Part shown: positions 40,099 through 48,284 of the stretch, piece after piece
Layout: every line of letters begins with the position of its first letter
How positions within the stretch are numbered: position 1 is the stretch's first letter
Origin: Porphyromonadaceae bacterium H1
Lineage (GTDB): Bacteria; Bacteroidota; Bacteroidia; Bacteroidales; Paludibacteraceae
DNA length: 64,000 nt
Assembly: GCA_001653155.1 (NCBI GenBank)
Contig: BDEJ01000011.1
Span: forward strand, 1-64,000
Reading direction: 5' to 3'
Program-made: the position numbers and the translations under genes
The notes under the pieces: generated by a model
The model's database searches: none
What the model saw: the letters and a program-made list of their open reading frames with translations, nothing else
What the model was told of the DNA's origin: nothing

Positions 40099-42345
40099 TT
40101 AAAAACGAAGGGTCAGTCGTGCCATGTAGTTACGCATGGCTTGAGGGTAGTAACCAACGTAGCTGTTCGGCGTATCTTTACCGCCATCTCGGTAGTAGAA
40201 CTTGGAAGCATATCCGTTGGCGATATACTCGGTATCAAACAAGTTGTTCACGAAAAACTGAAGGCTTATTTCTCCCAATCCGGTCTTCCGGAAAGTATAT
40301 CCCGCTGAGAGGTTGGTTACGCTATATGCCGGTAACGAGCGCTCGTCATCCGAAGTATTGTCGAGGTATTGCTTGCTCACGTATTTGCTTTGGATGTTGA
40401 AGTAGAGTACATCGAAGGGCGTATAGGTCAGCCTCGCGAAGCCTACGTGGTTGGGCGAATAGGATATGTGGGTAGATGGGAAGAGTTCCGGGAGACGCTC
40501 TAATTCTTTGTCACTGCTGTCATACACAGGGAAATAAGCGATGTAATTCTTGATTTTATTTTCGCTCAGCGTATAGTTTGCGTCGAAATGGAGCGATTTC
40601 AGAAGCTTGAGTGAAAGCTCCAATTCCAGTCCTGCGCGGTAACTTCGGGCAACATTTTCCATCAATTTATATCCCACATCGTTGAGTTTGCCGGTTTGTA
40701 CGAGCTGATTGCGATAATCCATATAGTAGAGATTAGCTCCGAAGCTAAAATTCTCGTACCGGTAGCGATAGCCCAGCTCGTAGTCTATCATTTGTTCCGG
40801 TTTTACAGCGTCCTTGTCCTTTCCCTTTATGGCGTCTTTCAGGTCGGCACGCAAGGGTTCGCGTTGTCCCACGGCTACAGAGGCGTAGAGGTCGTTTCGT
40901 TCGTTGAGGTGATAAAATAGCCCAGTTTTGGGGTTGAAGAACTTGTAGTTGAATCGGTGCGTCAAATCGACCAAATCGTCATCTTTGCCCGAAAAATCGT
41001 AGTCAATGAGCCGGTATTGCAGGTCTCCGAAGAGGGAAAGTTGTTCGGTAAGCAGATATTCGGCTTTCGCAAAGGTGTTGAATTCTCCTTTTCTGCCGTT
41101 GTTGCGATACCATTCAAAAGTTTCTAGGTTTACGGCATTGTCTTTTTCCCAATATTTTACCCAAGGCAGTTTGCCGAAGTGTGCTCCGTTGTATAGGCTG
41201 TAGAGGGCGCCGAAGTTTGCTTTGAGGCGTTCGGTGCTGTACTCCAAGCCGAGGTTTGCTACATAGAAATCGTTTTCCATCAGCTTTCTCCGGATCATAT
41301 CCGATCTCTCGTAGGTTTTGCTGTCAATGACTTGCGGCTGCAATCCGAAGTCTTTGAATTCACGAGCGGTTTTGTAGTTTTCGTAATATCCGTATCCGTG
41401 GTTCCAACTCAGGGAGGTATTGAGCATGAGATTGTCGATGAGTTCGCGTGAAAAGAGCAACTGCACGATGTCGGAATAGTAGTTGTCGGTTTCGTTGTCG
41501 TAGTAGAAGCGGTTGCCGACTTCATCGAAATATTCTCCGCTGAGGTTGTAGCGGCGTCCGTACTGTGGGTCTTTCATTTGTTCGGCTGTAACACCTTCCC
41601 AGGTGATTCCCGTGTGCTGCACGCCTTTGATGTAGCTCAGGCGGATGAGTTGCCGATGGGCATAGTGAGAGAGGGCGGCGTAGAGGTTGCTGTGGTTTAC
41701 TTTTCCGTTGCGGATGTACCCGTCGCCCAGCACACGGGAATAGCGCACGTCGAGGGAAAGTCCGTTTTCTAGTATTCCGGTACCGCCCGCAAGTGTCGAC
41801 GCGAAAGTGTTGTAGCTCCCCAAGGCTGTTGATGCTTCGCCATAGGCTTCGGACCGTGCACCAGTGGTTTTGAGCGAGATGCTGGCTCCAAAGGCTGCGC
41901 TACCGTTAGAGGAAGTACCCACGCCACGCTGTATTTGAATGCTTTGAAGGGCGTTCGATAAATCGGGCAGGTTTACCCAAAAGACTTCCTGACTTTCGGG
42001 ATTGTTGAGCGGCATGCCGTTGAGCGTTACGTTGATGCGCGTGGCGTCCGTGCCGCGAATACGCATGGAGCTGTTGCCTACGCCCGACCCGTCTTCGGTG
42101 AAAGCCACGAAAGAGGGCTGGCTTTGCAGGATAAGAGGAATGTTGCGTGCGGCATTGTCTTTTTTGATCTCCATCTCGGAAAGGTTGGAATAAGCCATAG
42201 GTGTGGTTCGTCCGGCCCGTATGGCCGAAACGGTAACTTCTTCCAGCTGCCTGCTTTTGATCGTGTCGGCCGGATTGCTCGCGGCGTTAAGCTTTGTGCC
42301 GGCGATAGATACACCGGCCAGTAGAATAACAAATAACTTTCTCAT
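40099..42345 (-). CDS. TonB-dependent outer-membrane receptor, predicted thiamine/precursor importer
   Basis: A 748-residue TonB-dependent receptor. Signal peptide (to about LNAA), a TonB-box-like EEVTVSA near residue 36, the plug domain (SSMRIRGTDATRINVTLNG, SIQIQRGVGTSSNG), then a 22-strand-type barrel ending in aromatic Phe (ARLTLRF). It lacks an N-terminal carboxypeptidase-like domain, so it is not a SusC type. The leader carries a TPP riboswitch, which assigns it to thiamine or thiamine-precursor uptake. No inner-membrane thiamine transporter or thi genes are adjacent. Confidence 0.92.
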   Translation of the reverse strand: MRKLFVILLAGVSIAGTKLNAASNPADTIKSRQLEEVTVSAIRAGRTTPMAYSNLSEMEIKKDNAARNIPLILQSQPSFVAFTEDGSGVGNSSMRIRGTDATRINVTLNGMPLNNPESQEVFWVNLPDLSNALQSIQIQRGVGTSSNGSAAFGASISLKTTGARSEAYGEASTALGSYNTFASTLAGGTGILENGLSLDVRYSRVLGDGYIRNGKVNHSNLYAALSHYAHRQLIRLSYIKGVQHTGITWEGVTAEQMKDPQYGRRYNLSGEYFDEVGNRFYYDNETDNYYSDIVQLLFSRELIDNLMLNTSLSWNHGYGYYENYKTAREFKDFGLQPQVIDSKTYERSDMIRRKLMENDFYVANLGLEYSTERLKANFGALYSLYNGAHFGKLPWVKYWEKDNAVNLETFEWYRNNGRKGEFNTFAKAEYLLTEQLSLFGDLQYRLIDYDFSGKDDDLVDLTHRFNYKFFNPKTGLFYHLNERNDLYASVAVGQREPLRADLKDAIKGKDKDAVKPEQMIDYELGYRYRYENFSFGANLYYMDYRNQLVQTGKLNDVGYKLMENVARSYRAGLELELSLKLLKSLHFDANYTLSENKIKNYIAYFPVYDSSDKELERLPELFPSTHISYSPNHVGFARLTYTPFDVLYFNIQSKYVSKQYLDNTSDDERSLPAYSVTNLSAGYTFRKTGLGEISLQFFVNNLFDTEYIANGYASKFYYRDGGKDTPNSYVGYYPQAMRNYMARLTLRF

Positions 42346-42403
42346 TGTAATTTATAAAATTAAATAGTTAATAAATTAATGAGAGAGCCTGAATGACGGA
42401 AAT

Positions 42404-42492
42404 AATGTGAGGATACTTTTTCCCTTTCCGGAATTACCCGGACAGGTTCAAAGGGTATGATCTCAGCCCGAAACAGTAAGGCACCCCATTTT
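42404..42492 (-). promoter_or_regulatory. TPP (THI-element) riboswitch
   Basis: On the minus strand the conserved core is clear: GGGGTGC (42487-42481), CTGAGAT (42466-42460) and ACCCTTTGAACCTG (42456-42443), followed by a closing arm near 42416-42404. These are the invariant blocks of the thiamin-pyrophosphate aptamer. It lies about 60 nt before the TonB receptor start. No terminator hairpin is seen after the aptamer, so control may be at translation initiation. Confidence 0.93.
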
Positions 42493-42535
42493 TAGTGATT
42501 AAATACCGGTGGAAAATCCGAAAATTTTCCGCGCG

Positions 42536-42566
42536 CAAAAGTATAAAAAAAATGGATAGCTACCAA
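42536..42566 (-). promoter_or_regulatory. Promoter upstream of the TPP riboswitch
   Basis: TACTTTTG on the minus strand (42543-42536) with TTGG (42566-42563) 19 nt upstream, a partial match to TTTG. The start site would precede the aptamer by about 35 nt. The region 42570-42700 shows no gene. Confidence 0.55.
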
Positions 42567-42700
42567 TTCATCGGGGAGGGGATGTTTTTTTGAGCTTGCC
42601 GGGCCTTTGCTTTAAGCTGTAAGAAATGCGGAGCTATTTTTACTTGAGATATGCCGTTTTTCTTTAAGTGGCTGTTTGTGAGTTTTTTATGTTCCTTTTG

Positions 42701-43264
42701 TCAGAAGTGATAACTCAGCATAATCATGCCTACATAACCGACATTGGTGTCAAATTGATTTCTATTGGCCTCGGGTATAGGATTTTCCGGGTTCCGATAG
42801 TTCGTATACAGGAAATTAATGCCCAATTCGGTGGATACCGAAAACCGGGGCGACAGGAAGTATGCAATGCCGGCTAAAGGACTTAATCCCCAACGCAGGT
42901 AGTAGTTAGGCATGAAGTTGCGCAACCAATAAGACATGCGTGCGTCTGCGCCATAGTAAAAAAGCCAGTGTTCTGAGACGATGGGGAGTTTTCGCTCGTA
43001 GCCGACACGTAAGCTTGCCGTTTTATAGCCTTCTTTCCCGTTACTCCAGTCCAGATCCAAACCACTGCGGAGTGCGTTCCGTGTGTCGAAGTGCCACTTG
43101 TAGTTAATCAGGTTCGATTCTTTTTTCTTCGACAGAAAAGTAATGATATTGGCAATGTCTACCGAAATCTGATGCCGTAGCAATTTGTTGTTTTCTTCGG
43201 CAAAAGCAGCGGCGTTGTAAAGAAACAACGCCGCTATCAGAATGTGTTTCAGCTTTTTTATCAT
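42701..43264 (-). CDS. Small outer-membrane beta-barrel protein
   Basis: A 187-residue exported protein: signal peptide (to about AAAFA), alternating amphipathic strands, and a C-terminal aromatic residue (LSYHF) typical of outer-membrane barrels. About eight strands are expected at this length. I do not recognise a named family. Its start overlaps the stop of the upstream lipoprotein gene by 4 nt (ATGA), so the two are translationally coupled and probably act together. Confidence 0.75.
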   Translation of the reverse strand: MIKKLKHILIAALFLYNAAAFAEENNKLLRHQISVDIANIITFLSKKKESNLINYKWHFDTRNALRSGLDLDWSNGKEGYKTASLRVGYERKLPIVSEHWLFYYGADARMSYWLRNFMPNYYLRWGLSPLAGIAYFLSPRFSVSTELGINFLYTNYRNPENPIPEANRNQFDTNVGYVGMIMLSYHF

Positions 43265-44670: not shown

Positions 44671-46077
44671 TTATCTTCCTTCATCCGGATAATTAATCAG
44701 GAAAATTTGTTCGCTGGCACGCGTCAGAGCTGTGTAGAGCCAACGGTAAAATTCCGTATTTACCTGCTCGTCGGACAGCCTGCCCGTATCGATAAATACG
44801 TGTTTCCATTGTCCGCCTTGTGCCTTGTGGCAGGTGACGGCGTAGGCAAACTTTACCTGCAGTGCATTGAAAAACTCGTTTTCAAGTATCTTTTTGATGC
44901 GTTCGCGCCGGTTGCCTATCTCGATGTAGTCTTCCTCTACGCGAGCAAAGAGGGTGTCGGTCAATTGCTTCATTTCGGCCGGTGAGCCGGATTGTAGGGC
45001 GTCGAGCCATATTCGTGCATCGACTTCCCAGCCGTAGTCCTGCGAGTAAAGTGTCAGATCAACAAAGCGGAAACCGTAAATTTGATGATACTTACCGATG
45101 CGTTTTACCTCTACAATGTCGCCGTTGGCAATGAAGTCGATGTCGGGGGCATTCTTGTTCCAGAAGTAATTATTTTTCGTTACCATCAGCAAGTCGCCGT
45201 TATTGAGTTCCTCTTCACGCATCATCACGCGGGCCCGGATGCCGTTATTATAGAACTTTGCCCGTTGGTTCGAGCGTGTTACCACCATGCACTGCTCTAC
45301 TCCCTGCCTGTCGTAGGAGCGTTGCATTTGCTCGATGAGTTCGTTGCCGCTCAATCTCCTCACATCCGTAAAATCTCCGGTATTAAAGGGGGGGAGTTTG
45401 AATGTGTCGCCTTGTTCGATGCGCCGGCGAAGTTTGGTTGCGTACCAGAGGATACCGCTTTCCAAGGCCTGTCTCACCACTTGAGTGAGAACAAACTCCT
45501 TTACCGAAAGACCGTATCCTTCGAGAAATTCTGTTTGTAAAGCCGGACTGTTTTCCTGCATTACGGGAGGGAGTTGCGCCGTGTCGCCCAGTAGCAGGAG
45601 ACTGCAAGATTCAGCCTCGTACACATAACGGATCAGGTCGTCGAGCAAGCGTCCCGATCCGAAGGCGCTGCCTTCTCCATCGCTGTTGGAAATCATGGAA
45701 GCCTCATCTACCACGAAGAGCGTATCCCGATGACGGTTGTCCGACAGCTGAAAGCGAAACTCGGCCATTGACTTCTGGCGGTATATTTTTTTGTGTATGG
45801 TGTAGGCCGGCGAGCCGGAGTAACCGGAAAGGACTTTGGCTGCACGTCCGGTAGGAGCCAATAGTTGTGTCTTCTGTCCTAATTGCTTCATCGCCTTCAC
45901 CAAAGCACTGACCACGGAGGTCTTCCCTGTGCCGGCATAGCCCTTGAGTAGAAAAAGCTTTCCCGGCTCTTTCGAAGATAAAAAAACTCCGAGAGCTTCT
46001 ATCAGTTGCTTTTGTTGCTCGGTAGCTTCGAAAGGCAACTGTGCTTCTATTTGTCGGGCGATGAAGTCTTGTATCAT
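44671..46077 (-). CDS. RecD-like superfamily 1 DNA helicase
   Basis: A 468-residue ATPase of the RecD2/AAA_30 type. Walker A is GYAGTGKTSVV (near residue 45), Walker B is VVDEASM, and a C-terminal UvrD_C_2 motif is present (AVTCHKAQGGQWKHVFID). The family also has the conserved LLAPTGRAAKVL motif. These 5'-3' helicases act in DNA repair or recombination. RecB and RecC partners are not adjacent, so the protein probably works alone. It lies downstream of serC-serA on the same strand, separated by an inverted repeat. Confidence 0.9.
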   Translation of the reverse strand: MIQDFIARQIEAQLPFEATEQQKQLIEALGVFLSSKEPGKLFLLKGYAGTGKTSVVSALVKAMKQLGQKTQLLAPTGRAAKVLSGYSGSPAYTIHKKIYRQKSMAEFRFQLSDNRHRDTLFVVDEASMISNSDGEGSAFGSGRLLDDLIRYVYEAESCSLLLLGDTAQLPPVMQENSPALQTEFLEGYGLSVKEFVLTQVVRQALESGILWYATKLRRRIEQGDTFKLPPFNTGDFTDVRRLSGNELIEQMQRSYDRQGVEQCMVVTRSNQRAKFYNNGIRARVMMREEELNNGDLLMVTKNNYFWNKNAPDIDFIANGDIVEVKRIGKYHQIYGFRFVDLTLYSQDYGWEVDARIWLDALQSGSPAEMKQLTDTLFARVEEDYIEIGNRRERIKKILENEFFNALQVKFAYAVTCHKAQGGQWKHVFIDTGRLSDEQVNTEFYRWLYTALTRASEQIFLINYPDEGR

Positions 46078-46118
46078 GCAGCGGAGGAGCTGTGAAGCAC
46101 AAAAGTTCGGATACAGTA

Positions 46119-46153
46119 GAGGCTGTTCGGTTTTTGCTTTTCCGAACAGCCTC
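46119..46153. terminator. Inverted repeat between serA and the helicase gene
   Basis: Perfect 12-bp stem (46119-46130 with 46142-46153), 11-nt T-rich loop. On the minus strand no T tract follows, so it may be a processing or weak termination site after serA. Confidence 0.55.
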
Positions 46154-46167
46154 TTTGTTGAATTTTT

Positions 46168-47085
46168 TTAATTCACCCGGAAACTTTCGTTTCCGTTTTT
46201 GAGAAAATCGACAATTTGTTGGGCTGCTGCGATGCCGGCATTAATATTGGCTTCAGCTGTTTGAGCCCCCATCTTTTTCGGTGTCGAGAAGTAACGTCCC
46301 TTGCCGGCTTCTTGCATAGCCGCATCGTTAGCCGGAAGAATGTCGGTAAGATATTTGAAGTCGGGACGCTCTTTCATGAAGAGCAGCAGAGCCTCTTCGT
46401 CGATTACTTCCTTGCGTGCCGTATTCACAAGTACGGCTCCTTTAGGCATTTTTTCGAGCAGAATCTTGCCGATGGATTTTTTTGTTTGTTCGGTAGCGGG
46501 AATGTGCAGCGATACTACATCGCAAGAGGCATAGAGTTCTTCAGCGGAAGGGAGGGCTTTCACGCCGTCGGCCTCTATCGATGCAGCCGGACAGAAGGCG
46601 TCGTAGGCGGCAACCTCCATGCCGAAGCCTTTGGCAATACGGGCTACGTTGCGTCCCACGTTGCCGTAGGCGTGTATGCCGATACGTTTCCCCTTCAGCT
46701 CGAAGCCGGAACTTCCGTTGTAAAAGTTGCGGAAGGCAAAGACCAGGAGCCCGAATACCAGCTCGGCCACCGCATTGGAGTTTTGTCCGGGGGTGTTCAT
46801 CACACAAACCCCTGCCTTGCTCGCTGCGTCCAAATCTACATTGTCGTAGCCGGCGCCTGCCCTGACCACGATTTTCAGTTTTGGGGCTGCCGCTATTACT
46901 TCCGCGTCTATCAGGTCGCTTCGGATGATGAGCGCTTCGGCGTCGGCTACAGCTTCCAGCAGTTGCTCTTTGCTGCTGTATTTTTCCAGCAGAGCTAAAG
47001 AAAATCCCGCAACCTCTACTTCCCGGCGAATACCTTCGATGGCCACCGGAGCAAAGGGCTTGTCTGTTGCTACAAGTACTTTCAT
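46168..47085 (-). CDS. serA: D-3-phosphoglycerate dehydrogenase
   Basis: First step of serine synthesis: oxidises 3-phosphoglycerate with NAD+. At 305 residues it is the short form without an ACT or ASB regulatory domain. The substrate-binding and Rossmann features are present: VVRAGAGYDNVDLDAA, GKRIGIHAYGNVGRNVARIA, and the catalytic Arg, Glu and His blocks (NTARKEVIDEEAL). It lies 33 nt after serC, forming a serC-serA operon. The third gene, serB, is not in the window. Confidence 0.94.
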   Translation of the reverse strand: MKVLVATDKPFAPVAIEGIRREVEVAGFSLALLEKYSSKEQLLEAVADAEALIIRSDLIDAEVIAAAPKLKIVVRAGAGYDNVDLDAASKAGVCVMNTPGQNSNAVAELVFGLLVFAFRNFYNGSSGFELKGKRIGIHAYGNVGRNVARIAKGFGMEVAAYDAFCPAASIEADGVKALPSAEELYASCDVVSLHIPATEQTKKSIGKILLEKMPKGAVLVNTARKEVIDEEALLLFMKERPDFKYLTDILPANDAAMQEAGKGRYFSTPKKMGAQTAEANINAGIAAAQQIVDFLKNGNESFRVN

Positions 47086-47118
47086 AGGACTTTGTTTTTT
47101 AGATGTTCGGTGTAAAGA

Positions 47119-48186
47119 TTAGTGCTTTTTCTCGAATTCTTTCATGCAATCCACCAAGGCTTGAACGCTTTCCTTCGGCATGGCGTTGTAGATTGAAGCC
47201 CGGAAACCACCTACCGACCGGTGTCCTTTTATTCCGACCATTCCGCGCTCGGTTGCGAACTTAAGGAAGTCGGCTTCGAGCTCTTCGTAACCTGCCTTCA
47301 TAACGAAGCATACGTTCATACGCGAACGGTCTTCTGCGGCGGCTGTGCCGGTAAAGAGCTTGTTCCGGTCTATTTCGTCGTAGAGCAAGGCAGCCTTTGT
47401 CGTGTTGCGTTTTTCCATTTGGGCGACGCCTCCCATGTTTTTAATCCACCTGAGAGTTTCCAGTGCCGAATATATCGGCAGTACCGGTGGGGTGTTGAAC
47501 ATCGATTCGTTTTTGATGTGTGTACGGTAATCGAGCATCGTTGGGATGTGGCGCGAGACTTTACCCAACAAGGCTTCTTTTACGATCACGAAAGTCAGGC
47601 CGGCGGGTGCGAGGTTCTTCTGGGCTCCACCGTAGATTATACCGTACTTCGATACGTCCAGCGGACGGGAAAATATGTCGGAAGACATGTCGGCAACCAA
47701 GGGTACGGGCGAGTCCAAATCTTTTAATATCTCCGTACCGAAAATCGTGTTGTTGGTTGTTATGTGGAAGTAGTCGGCATCAGCAGGAATCCTGTAGTTC
47801 TTGGGTATGTAGGAATAATTCGACTCCTTTGACGAAGCCGTTTCGATGACTTCTCCAAAGCCTTTGGCTTCCTTCATCGCTTTGTTTGCCCAAGTCCCGG
47901 TGTCGAGGTAGGCTGCTTTTTTTTCCAGCAGGTTAAAAGGAATCATGGCAAATTGCAAACTCGCTCCTCCGCCCAAAAACAACACCGAATAGCCAGCAGG
48001 GATGTCGAGCAATTCTTTGAAAAGGCTGTTAGCTTCGTCGATAACTGCTTGGAAGTCTTTTGAACGATGGCTGATTTCGAGGATGGAAAGCCCGGAATCG
48101 TTAAGGTTCAAAACGGCATCAGCTGTTTTTTCAATTACTTCGCGTGGCAAAATAGAAGGACCTGCGTTAAAGTTGTGCTTTGTCAT
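47119..48186 (-). CDS. serC: Phosphoserine aminotransferase
   Basis: PLP enzyme converting 3-phosphohydroxypyruvate to phosphoserine; it can also serve pyridoxine synthesis. The ATG at 48186 gives a 355-residue protein beginning [14 protein letters not shown], the family N terminus. The PLP lysine lies in [12 protein letters not shown]. The C-terminal [18 protein letters not shown] is typical of SerC. It is the first gene of serC-serA and is divergent from pyrE. Confidence 0.96.
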
Positions 48187-48284
48187 ATTGTCGTTTTTTT
48201 GTTTGTGGCTCAGGAGAAACAACTGGCTCTGAGGTTTCCCGTTTCGCCGGATTTATGTTATCAGGGTCGAAGATATTCGACATA

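Follow-up and report, generated by a model that had tools for sequence, protein, structure and literature searches.

How can a riboswitch act on translation in bacteria whose mRNAs carry no Shine-Dalgarno (SD) sequence? The question arises at a receptor gene of Porphyromonadaceae bacterium H1, within a window of 64,000 nucleotides (contig BDEJ01000011.1), for which a first-pass annotation, made from the sequence letters, had proposed a TPP riboswitch at 42404–42566 in front of a gene for a TonB-dependent receptor. The mRNAs of this phylum are described as lacking SD sequences, with mRNA structure tuning initiation (PMC6847099, in the parts cited here), and because they lack them an account in which the SD sequence is hidden cannot hold in the Bacteroidota. 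Three TPP elements of Bacteroides thetaiotaomicron are listed in the cited part of PMC7366714, SD sequences lacking, and the function of TPP riboswitches in the phylum was termed uncertain by Costliow and Degnan in 2017 (PMC5613172, in part).

The TPP aptamer upstream of the receptor gene

The Rfam TPP family RF00059 (THI element) matches positions 42404–42493 of the minus strand over model positions 1–105 with 40.5 bits, corresponding to E 1.4e-6 in a search of 471 bases and E 1.9e-6 over the 2.84 Mb genome. The gathering score of the family is 54.3, about 14 bits higher, which is why scanning the full window with gathering thresholds listed a tRNA alone and missed the TPP element. The covariance search confirms the annotation by its genome-wide E value, although the score stays under the family's own cut-off. 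The proposed interval holds for the stretch covered by the match; the rest of it, up to 42566, belongs to the upstream leader and to promoter-like sequence rather than to the aptamer, with a TAnnTTTG box that we take to be the Bacteroidota –7 motif (Table 1).

The invariant blocks said to lie on the receptor's strand are all there (GGGGUGC, GGCUGAGA, AUACCC, GAACC, UAAU and GGGA), and the match ends 58 nt before the receptor ATG, close to the 60 nt given originally. The element shares with RF00059 the helices P2, P3, P4 and P5 and the core blocks CUGAGA, ACCC..GAACC, UAAU and GGGA, but differs in forming none of the five model pairs of P1, in having U.U as its outer P2 pair (both from the Rfam alignment) and in scoring under the gathering threshold; some 10 model positions, in the optional P3a region, are also missing. 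P1 is the helix usually credited with carrying the switch. Taken alone, the aptamer region folds no better than its shuffles (z 0.50). The match is nonetheless real and the kind of element already known, and binding of TPP by this RNA is predicted. The next-best match in the genome has E 0.74, leaving no second credible TPP element.

Table 1. Positions of the receptor gene and of the elements of its leader within the window
Feature	Position	Strand	Basis and remarks
TonB-dependent receptor, 748 aa, plug and barrel	40099..42345	-	Pfam PF07715, PF00593; homologues behind TPP matches
Start-codon hairpin GGCU-C-UCUCAU-UAAUUUAU / AUAAAUUA-CA-AUGAGA-A-AGUU	42335..42389	-	MFE fold
TPP aptamer core without P1	42421..42488	-	Rfam matches and invariant core; CUGAGA at 42461-42466
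Aptamer 5' strand AAUGGGG	42484..42490	-	putative; proposed alternative partner of the anti-start segment
Promoter-like TAnnTTTG box	42536..42543	-	read from sequence; TTG at 42564-42566

Conservation of the aptamer in related genomes

In a survey of 61 genomes, this one included, 39 contain a homologue of the receptor (E 1e-30 or better) and 53 a TPP match (E up to 0.01). The two lie together, with the TPP match just upstream on the same contig and strand, in 35 of the 39 (own genome included; tables compared by eye); the remaining four comprise receptor fragments in G035, G042 and G053 (genome numbers are ours) and a TPP match in G013 situated on another contig, 165 nt short of its end. With the Rfam match, this co-location confirms a TPP riboswitch before a TonB-dependent receptor.

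A wider draw of 122 receptor loci yielded 105 with an aptamer, recognised by its core pattern, and a start; the other 17 were left out. We define the clade of the window's element as leaders whose genes begin AUGAG, and aligned 40 of its 69 members, leaving out seven long leaders, one without a P2 match, three with hairpin inserts, and near-duplicates. The core blocks are invariant in these 40 leaders, whereas the 15 nt preceding the core contain no column conserved at 90% or more, and compensatory changes occur in 5 of 16 consensus pairs, all within P4 and P5. U.U replaces the outer P2 pair in 54/68 clade elements compared to 8/30 other receptor elements and 0/24 biosynthesis elements, the rows being related and not independent. 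The mean best P1 helix measures 2.66 bp in the 68 clade elements, 3.90 bp in the 30 other receptor elements and 4.75 bp in the 24 biosynthesis elements (raw means, without the chance level). Proximal P1 strands in the clade fit their own partners no better than those of other genomes (p 0.85, 14 clusters), and a distal P1 formed with upstream sequence found no support in the same comparison (p 0.40, 22 clusters; a row for the further set described below, whose energies were not physical, is left out). P1 appears to be missing from the aptamer throughout the window's clade. In six genomes of the genera g21 and g9 (G021, G009, G173, G319, G299 and G259) the chosen receptor start comes only 47–50 nt past CUGAGA, immediately where the aptamer ends on its 3' side, and there the aptamer itself may cover the start.

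The receptor and its probable cargo

The receptor has a plug and a beta-barrel, with Pfam scores of 50.7 bits (PF07715) and 100.8 bits (PF00593), both over the cut-off. By name we take it to be of the OMthi/Omr1 type, and we predict from its sequence and setting that it is an outer-membrane thiamine receptor. In the cited parts of PMC5613172 a TPP riboswitch is described upstream of the outer-membrane thiamine receptor OMthi (BT2390) of B. thetaiotaomicron, with pnuT-tnr3; TPP-regulated outer-membrane receptors are thus indeed known in the Bacteroidota, as had been stated. The same source gives receptor-pnuT-TPK as the commonest array (Costliow and Degnan 2017; PMC5613172, in part). Comparison of coordinates places pnuT- and TPK-type genes after the receptor in G022, G003, G040 and G060, and in G022, whose receptor is 57% identical to ours, these are a PnuT-type gene and a thiamine pyrophosphokinase. 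The window receptor has the upstream TPP element and neither pnuT nor TPK adjoining.

Over its last 650 aa, the receptor body is 52–59% identical to the receptors of G075, G022, G055 and G431 and 39–42% identical to those of six other genomes of the same family tested (the comparison names G075, G024, G142, G095, G150, G034, G033, G022, G055 and G431), while the whole receptor is 62% identical to that of Proteiniphilum sp. UBA1403 (Dysgonomonadaceae). In leader and first codons (AUGAGAAAGUU), by contrast, the window's gene is similar to those of G024, G112, G125 and G150. It looks like the receptor body was exchanged beneath a retained riboswitch. Elsewhere on the receptor's strand, at 44671–48222, serC (47119–48222) and a phosphoglycerate-dehydrogenase-like gene (46168–47085) stand in tandem upstream of a gene for a RecD2-like helicase (44671–46077).

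The genome is 99.87% complete at 2.84 Mb. It contains no match to ThiC or ThiE, and none to thiamine pyrophosphokinase (TPK) with two models. ThiL is present (C62:9490–10479), and the combination of ThiL without ThiE and without TPK recurs in 19 of 37 genomes of the same family, counting matches over the cut-offs. One transporter of the PnuC/PnuT type is encoded on another contig than the receptor (C18:37876–38415), with no TPP match in the surrounding 10 kb. The description of the receptor as a stand-alone member of its regulon is upheld by this and by the lack of a second credible TPP element. A small RNA of the FopS family, at L064:8777–8852 on the minus strand of genome contig 18, is about 3.3 kb away from the PnuT-type gene; its match to Rfam RF04319 scores 71.8 bits, above the cut-off of 56.

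We predict that the organism needs thiamine and imports it through this receptor and the PnuT-type transporter. As for the cargo, 'thiamine or a precursor' had been suggested at first; as ThiC and ThiE are unmatched, a precursor would be useless by the known route, and the cargo that we infer is thiamine itself. For the missing thiamine kinase, two matches to the APH family are weak candidates only, as 58 of 61 genomes contain such matches, this one at two places, and they single out no one gene.

The start codon is predicted to pair within the leader

The minimum free energy (MFE) fold of the window's leader contains a start-codon hairpin even without ligand, in which an anti-start arm (42371–42389) is joined by a 15-nt loop to a 3' arm formed by the translation start. 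Opening positions –4 to +10 costs 10.2 kcal/mol, the highest value among 41 open reading frames of the window (median 3.3; the set consists of the longest non-overlapping frames of 150 codons or more that begin with ATG, the receptor among them). The median over 35 receptor clusters is 8.2, likewise raised compared to the open reading frames of the window (Mann-Whitney p 1.9e-5). With the short arms held fixed, loops fold better than shuffled loops (mean z –2.76 in 64 leaders; –2.37 in 12 cluster representatives, one of which, G010, is positive at 1.75). Inner arms also fit their own partner better than those of others (p 0.0045, 20 clade clusters), a comparison that kept a few rows with a misplaced anti-start (e.g. 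G075, G023, G101, G125). The anti-start motif is retained in G018, G163, G142 and G075 despite hairpins or long inserts before the start.

Other measures are less clear-cut. The mean unpaired probability of the AUG is 0.24 compared to 0.36 in shuffles (96 leaders), a modest difference, and it is at or under 10% of shuffles in 28 of the 96, a mixed result. RNAalifold did not recover the start hairpin from a plain alignment, which we think is due to misalignment of the gapped loop.

One leader segment with two probable partners

The anti-start segment has a second possible partner within the aptamer: by hand count, AAUGGGG can form seven pairs with 42378–42384, two of them G-U, and the leader segment selected for both partners is identical in the window's element. 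We compared leader pairing across 53 clusters of TPP elements, excluding the first 16 nt past the aptamer to keep P1 out; the clusters here, and in the further set below, retain some dependence on one another. Pairing a leader with its own start rather than with another genome's gains 1.54 kcal/mol (p < 5e-5; shuffled leaders 0.26 +/- 0.21), and the corresponding gain for its own aptamer 5' strand is 0.95 kcal/mol (p 1e-4; shuffled leaders 0.11 +/- 0.19). In 20 of 29 receptor clusters the segment that pairs best with the start overlaps the one that pairs best with the 5' strand, compared to 10.9 +/- 2.5 in shuffles (1 of 100 as high). A joint score reaches 5.43 in these 29 clusters against 2.05 +/- 0.52 (none of 100 shuffles as high), and only 3.46 against 2.45 +/- 0.69 in 20 biosynthesis clusters (7 of 100 as high).

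The same picture emerged when the comparison was extended to a further set, drawn from other families of the order. Of its 66 loci, 58 had an aptamer and start by the same rules (8 missed), forming 41 clusters unlike the earlier elements, 34 of them of usable length. In these 34, overlap was found in 20 (shuffles 11.9 +/- 2.8, 1 of 200 as high), the joint score was 4.69 against 1.92 +/- 0.48 (0 of 200 shuffles), and the preference for the own start (p 1e-4) and own 5' strand (p < 5e-5) was again evident. Clear single cases of dual pairing are G051, where leader ACCUCAUUCU can face either aptamer AGAAUGGGGU or the start AUGAGGU, and L270 in the further set. Two genomes, G144 and G116, have an ATG directly after GGGA that is probably wrong, as the sister G033 starts later; their short leaders placed them outside the later tests, and G003, with a stop in the frame read, is outside the leader set.

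For the window's own leader, pairing with the 5' strand of its own aptamer is no stronger than with those of others (–7.9 vs –9.0, in a comparison that took in the P1 3' strand); this speaks against the dual pairing here, as does an MFE fold that holds the start hairpin without ligand. Because this pairing is not specific, the alternative pairing, i.e. the ON state, of the window's element is extrapolated from the wider set. A sequence test for direct resemblance of the aptamer 5' strand to the start ('mimicry') was non-significant in all four groupings (p 0.07 to 0.31), and the idea that the strand acts as a decoy of the start therefore remains conjecture.

Proposed mechanism and alternative explanations

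We propose that translation of an outer-membrane thiamine receptor is governed by a P1-less TPP riboswitch, through sequestration of the start codon, and consider this probable. The aptamer match, the receptor and the start hairpin with its conservation are computational observations; the direction of the switch is our inference, as follows. At low TPP, the aptamer 5' strand AAUGGGG would hold the C/U-rich segment UCUCAU of the leader, leaving the start codon open. Bound TPP would lock the AAUGGGG strand in P2 and release the leader segment, and the released UCUCAU would pair with AUGAGA, burying the start codon and preventing synthesis of the importer. The translational control favoured initially is thereby supported and specified as a start-codon hairpin.

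It is unlikely that the element is instead an ordinary TPP riboswitch acting on transcription, through intrinsic or Rho-dependent termination, with the start hairpin a constant brake on translation. Terminator-like hairpins were seen by eye in biosynthesis elements of some relatives (G049, and one each in G055 and G059), and Rho control would be invisible to our scans. However, no terminator-like site was detected on the minus strand of 42250–42720 (there is one on the plus strand), in agreement with the original reading that none follows the aptamer, and the leader's dual pairing, strong among receptor elements, is weak in biosynthesis elements. RNA-seq of B. thetaiotaomicron, moreover, showed no significant response of the OMthi transcript to thiamine, and transporter transcripts hardly changed (PMC5613172, in the results cited here); an OMthi transcript without such a response is what translational control predicts.

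Decay of the aptamer, with loss of TPP sensing, could be read from the low score, the absent P1 and the U.U pair, but is very improbable given a core that stays invariant in 40 diverged leaders next to unconserved sequence, and the compensatory changes in P4 and P5. That the receptor carries something other than thiamine, be it a precursor, a phosphate ester or an unrelated ligand, we regard as quite unlikely. Its specificity is unreadable from sequence, its likeness to many receptor families is weak and in each case under the cut-off, it matched no solved structure by sequence, and the genome has no TPK match; against this stand the uselessness of a precursor without ThiC and ThiE, the receptor-pnuT-TPK arrays in which homologues sit, and the genetics of BT2390. 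Deletion of that receptor alone had no effect on growth, though combined with loss of biosynthesis or of pnuT it led to poorer growth at low thiamine (PMC5613172, in the experiments cited here).

Relation to known systems

The proposed start-codon sequestration by a TPP riboswitch without P1 has a counterpart in the translational TPP riboswitches of the E. coli thiM type, in which a freed leader segment hides the SD sequence. In both, TPP would free a leader segment that hides the translation start; here, however, the start codon and first codons would be hidden and not an SD sequence. With OMthi BT2390 the locus shares a TonB-dependent receptor implicated in thiamine uptake, a TPP aptamer in that receptor's leader and separation from pnuT, but it is set apart by description in having no match to ThiC, ThiE or TPK, a PnuT-type gene without a TPP match, and no P1.

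A search of titles and abstract openings found no description of start-codon sequestration by a riboswitch in this phylum. A 2019 preprint by Costliow, Degnan and Vanderpool (bioRxiv 867226), cited in PMC7366714, deals by its title with transcriptional or translational control by these riboswitches, and may already cover part of the mechanism for Bacteroides. The element and its kind are known from OMthi of Bacteroides; the expression platform is the newer part, with that reservation.

More tentatively, and with somewhat more doubt than belief, we suggest that the TPP riboswitches of thiamine receptors in the Bacteroidales form a distinct platform class, in which one leader segment pairs alternately with the start codon and with the aptamer 5' strand; this platform would have taken the place of P1 entirely in the window's clade, and the outer P2 pair would have been sacrificed there for AUGGGG as a decoy of AUGAGA. 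An aptamer core has been kept across many genera without P1, and the lineage seemingly depends on imported thiamine and has no recognisable enzyme for the first phosphorylation, to the monophosphate that ThiL uses. For a phylum without SD sequences, the proposed mechanism would give a concrete and testable answer, in which it is the start codon that is masked, in keeping with bacteria that initiate without the usual ribosome-binding sequence.
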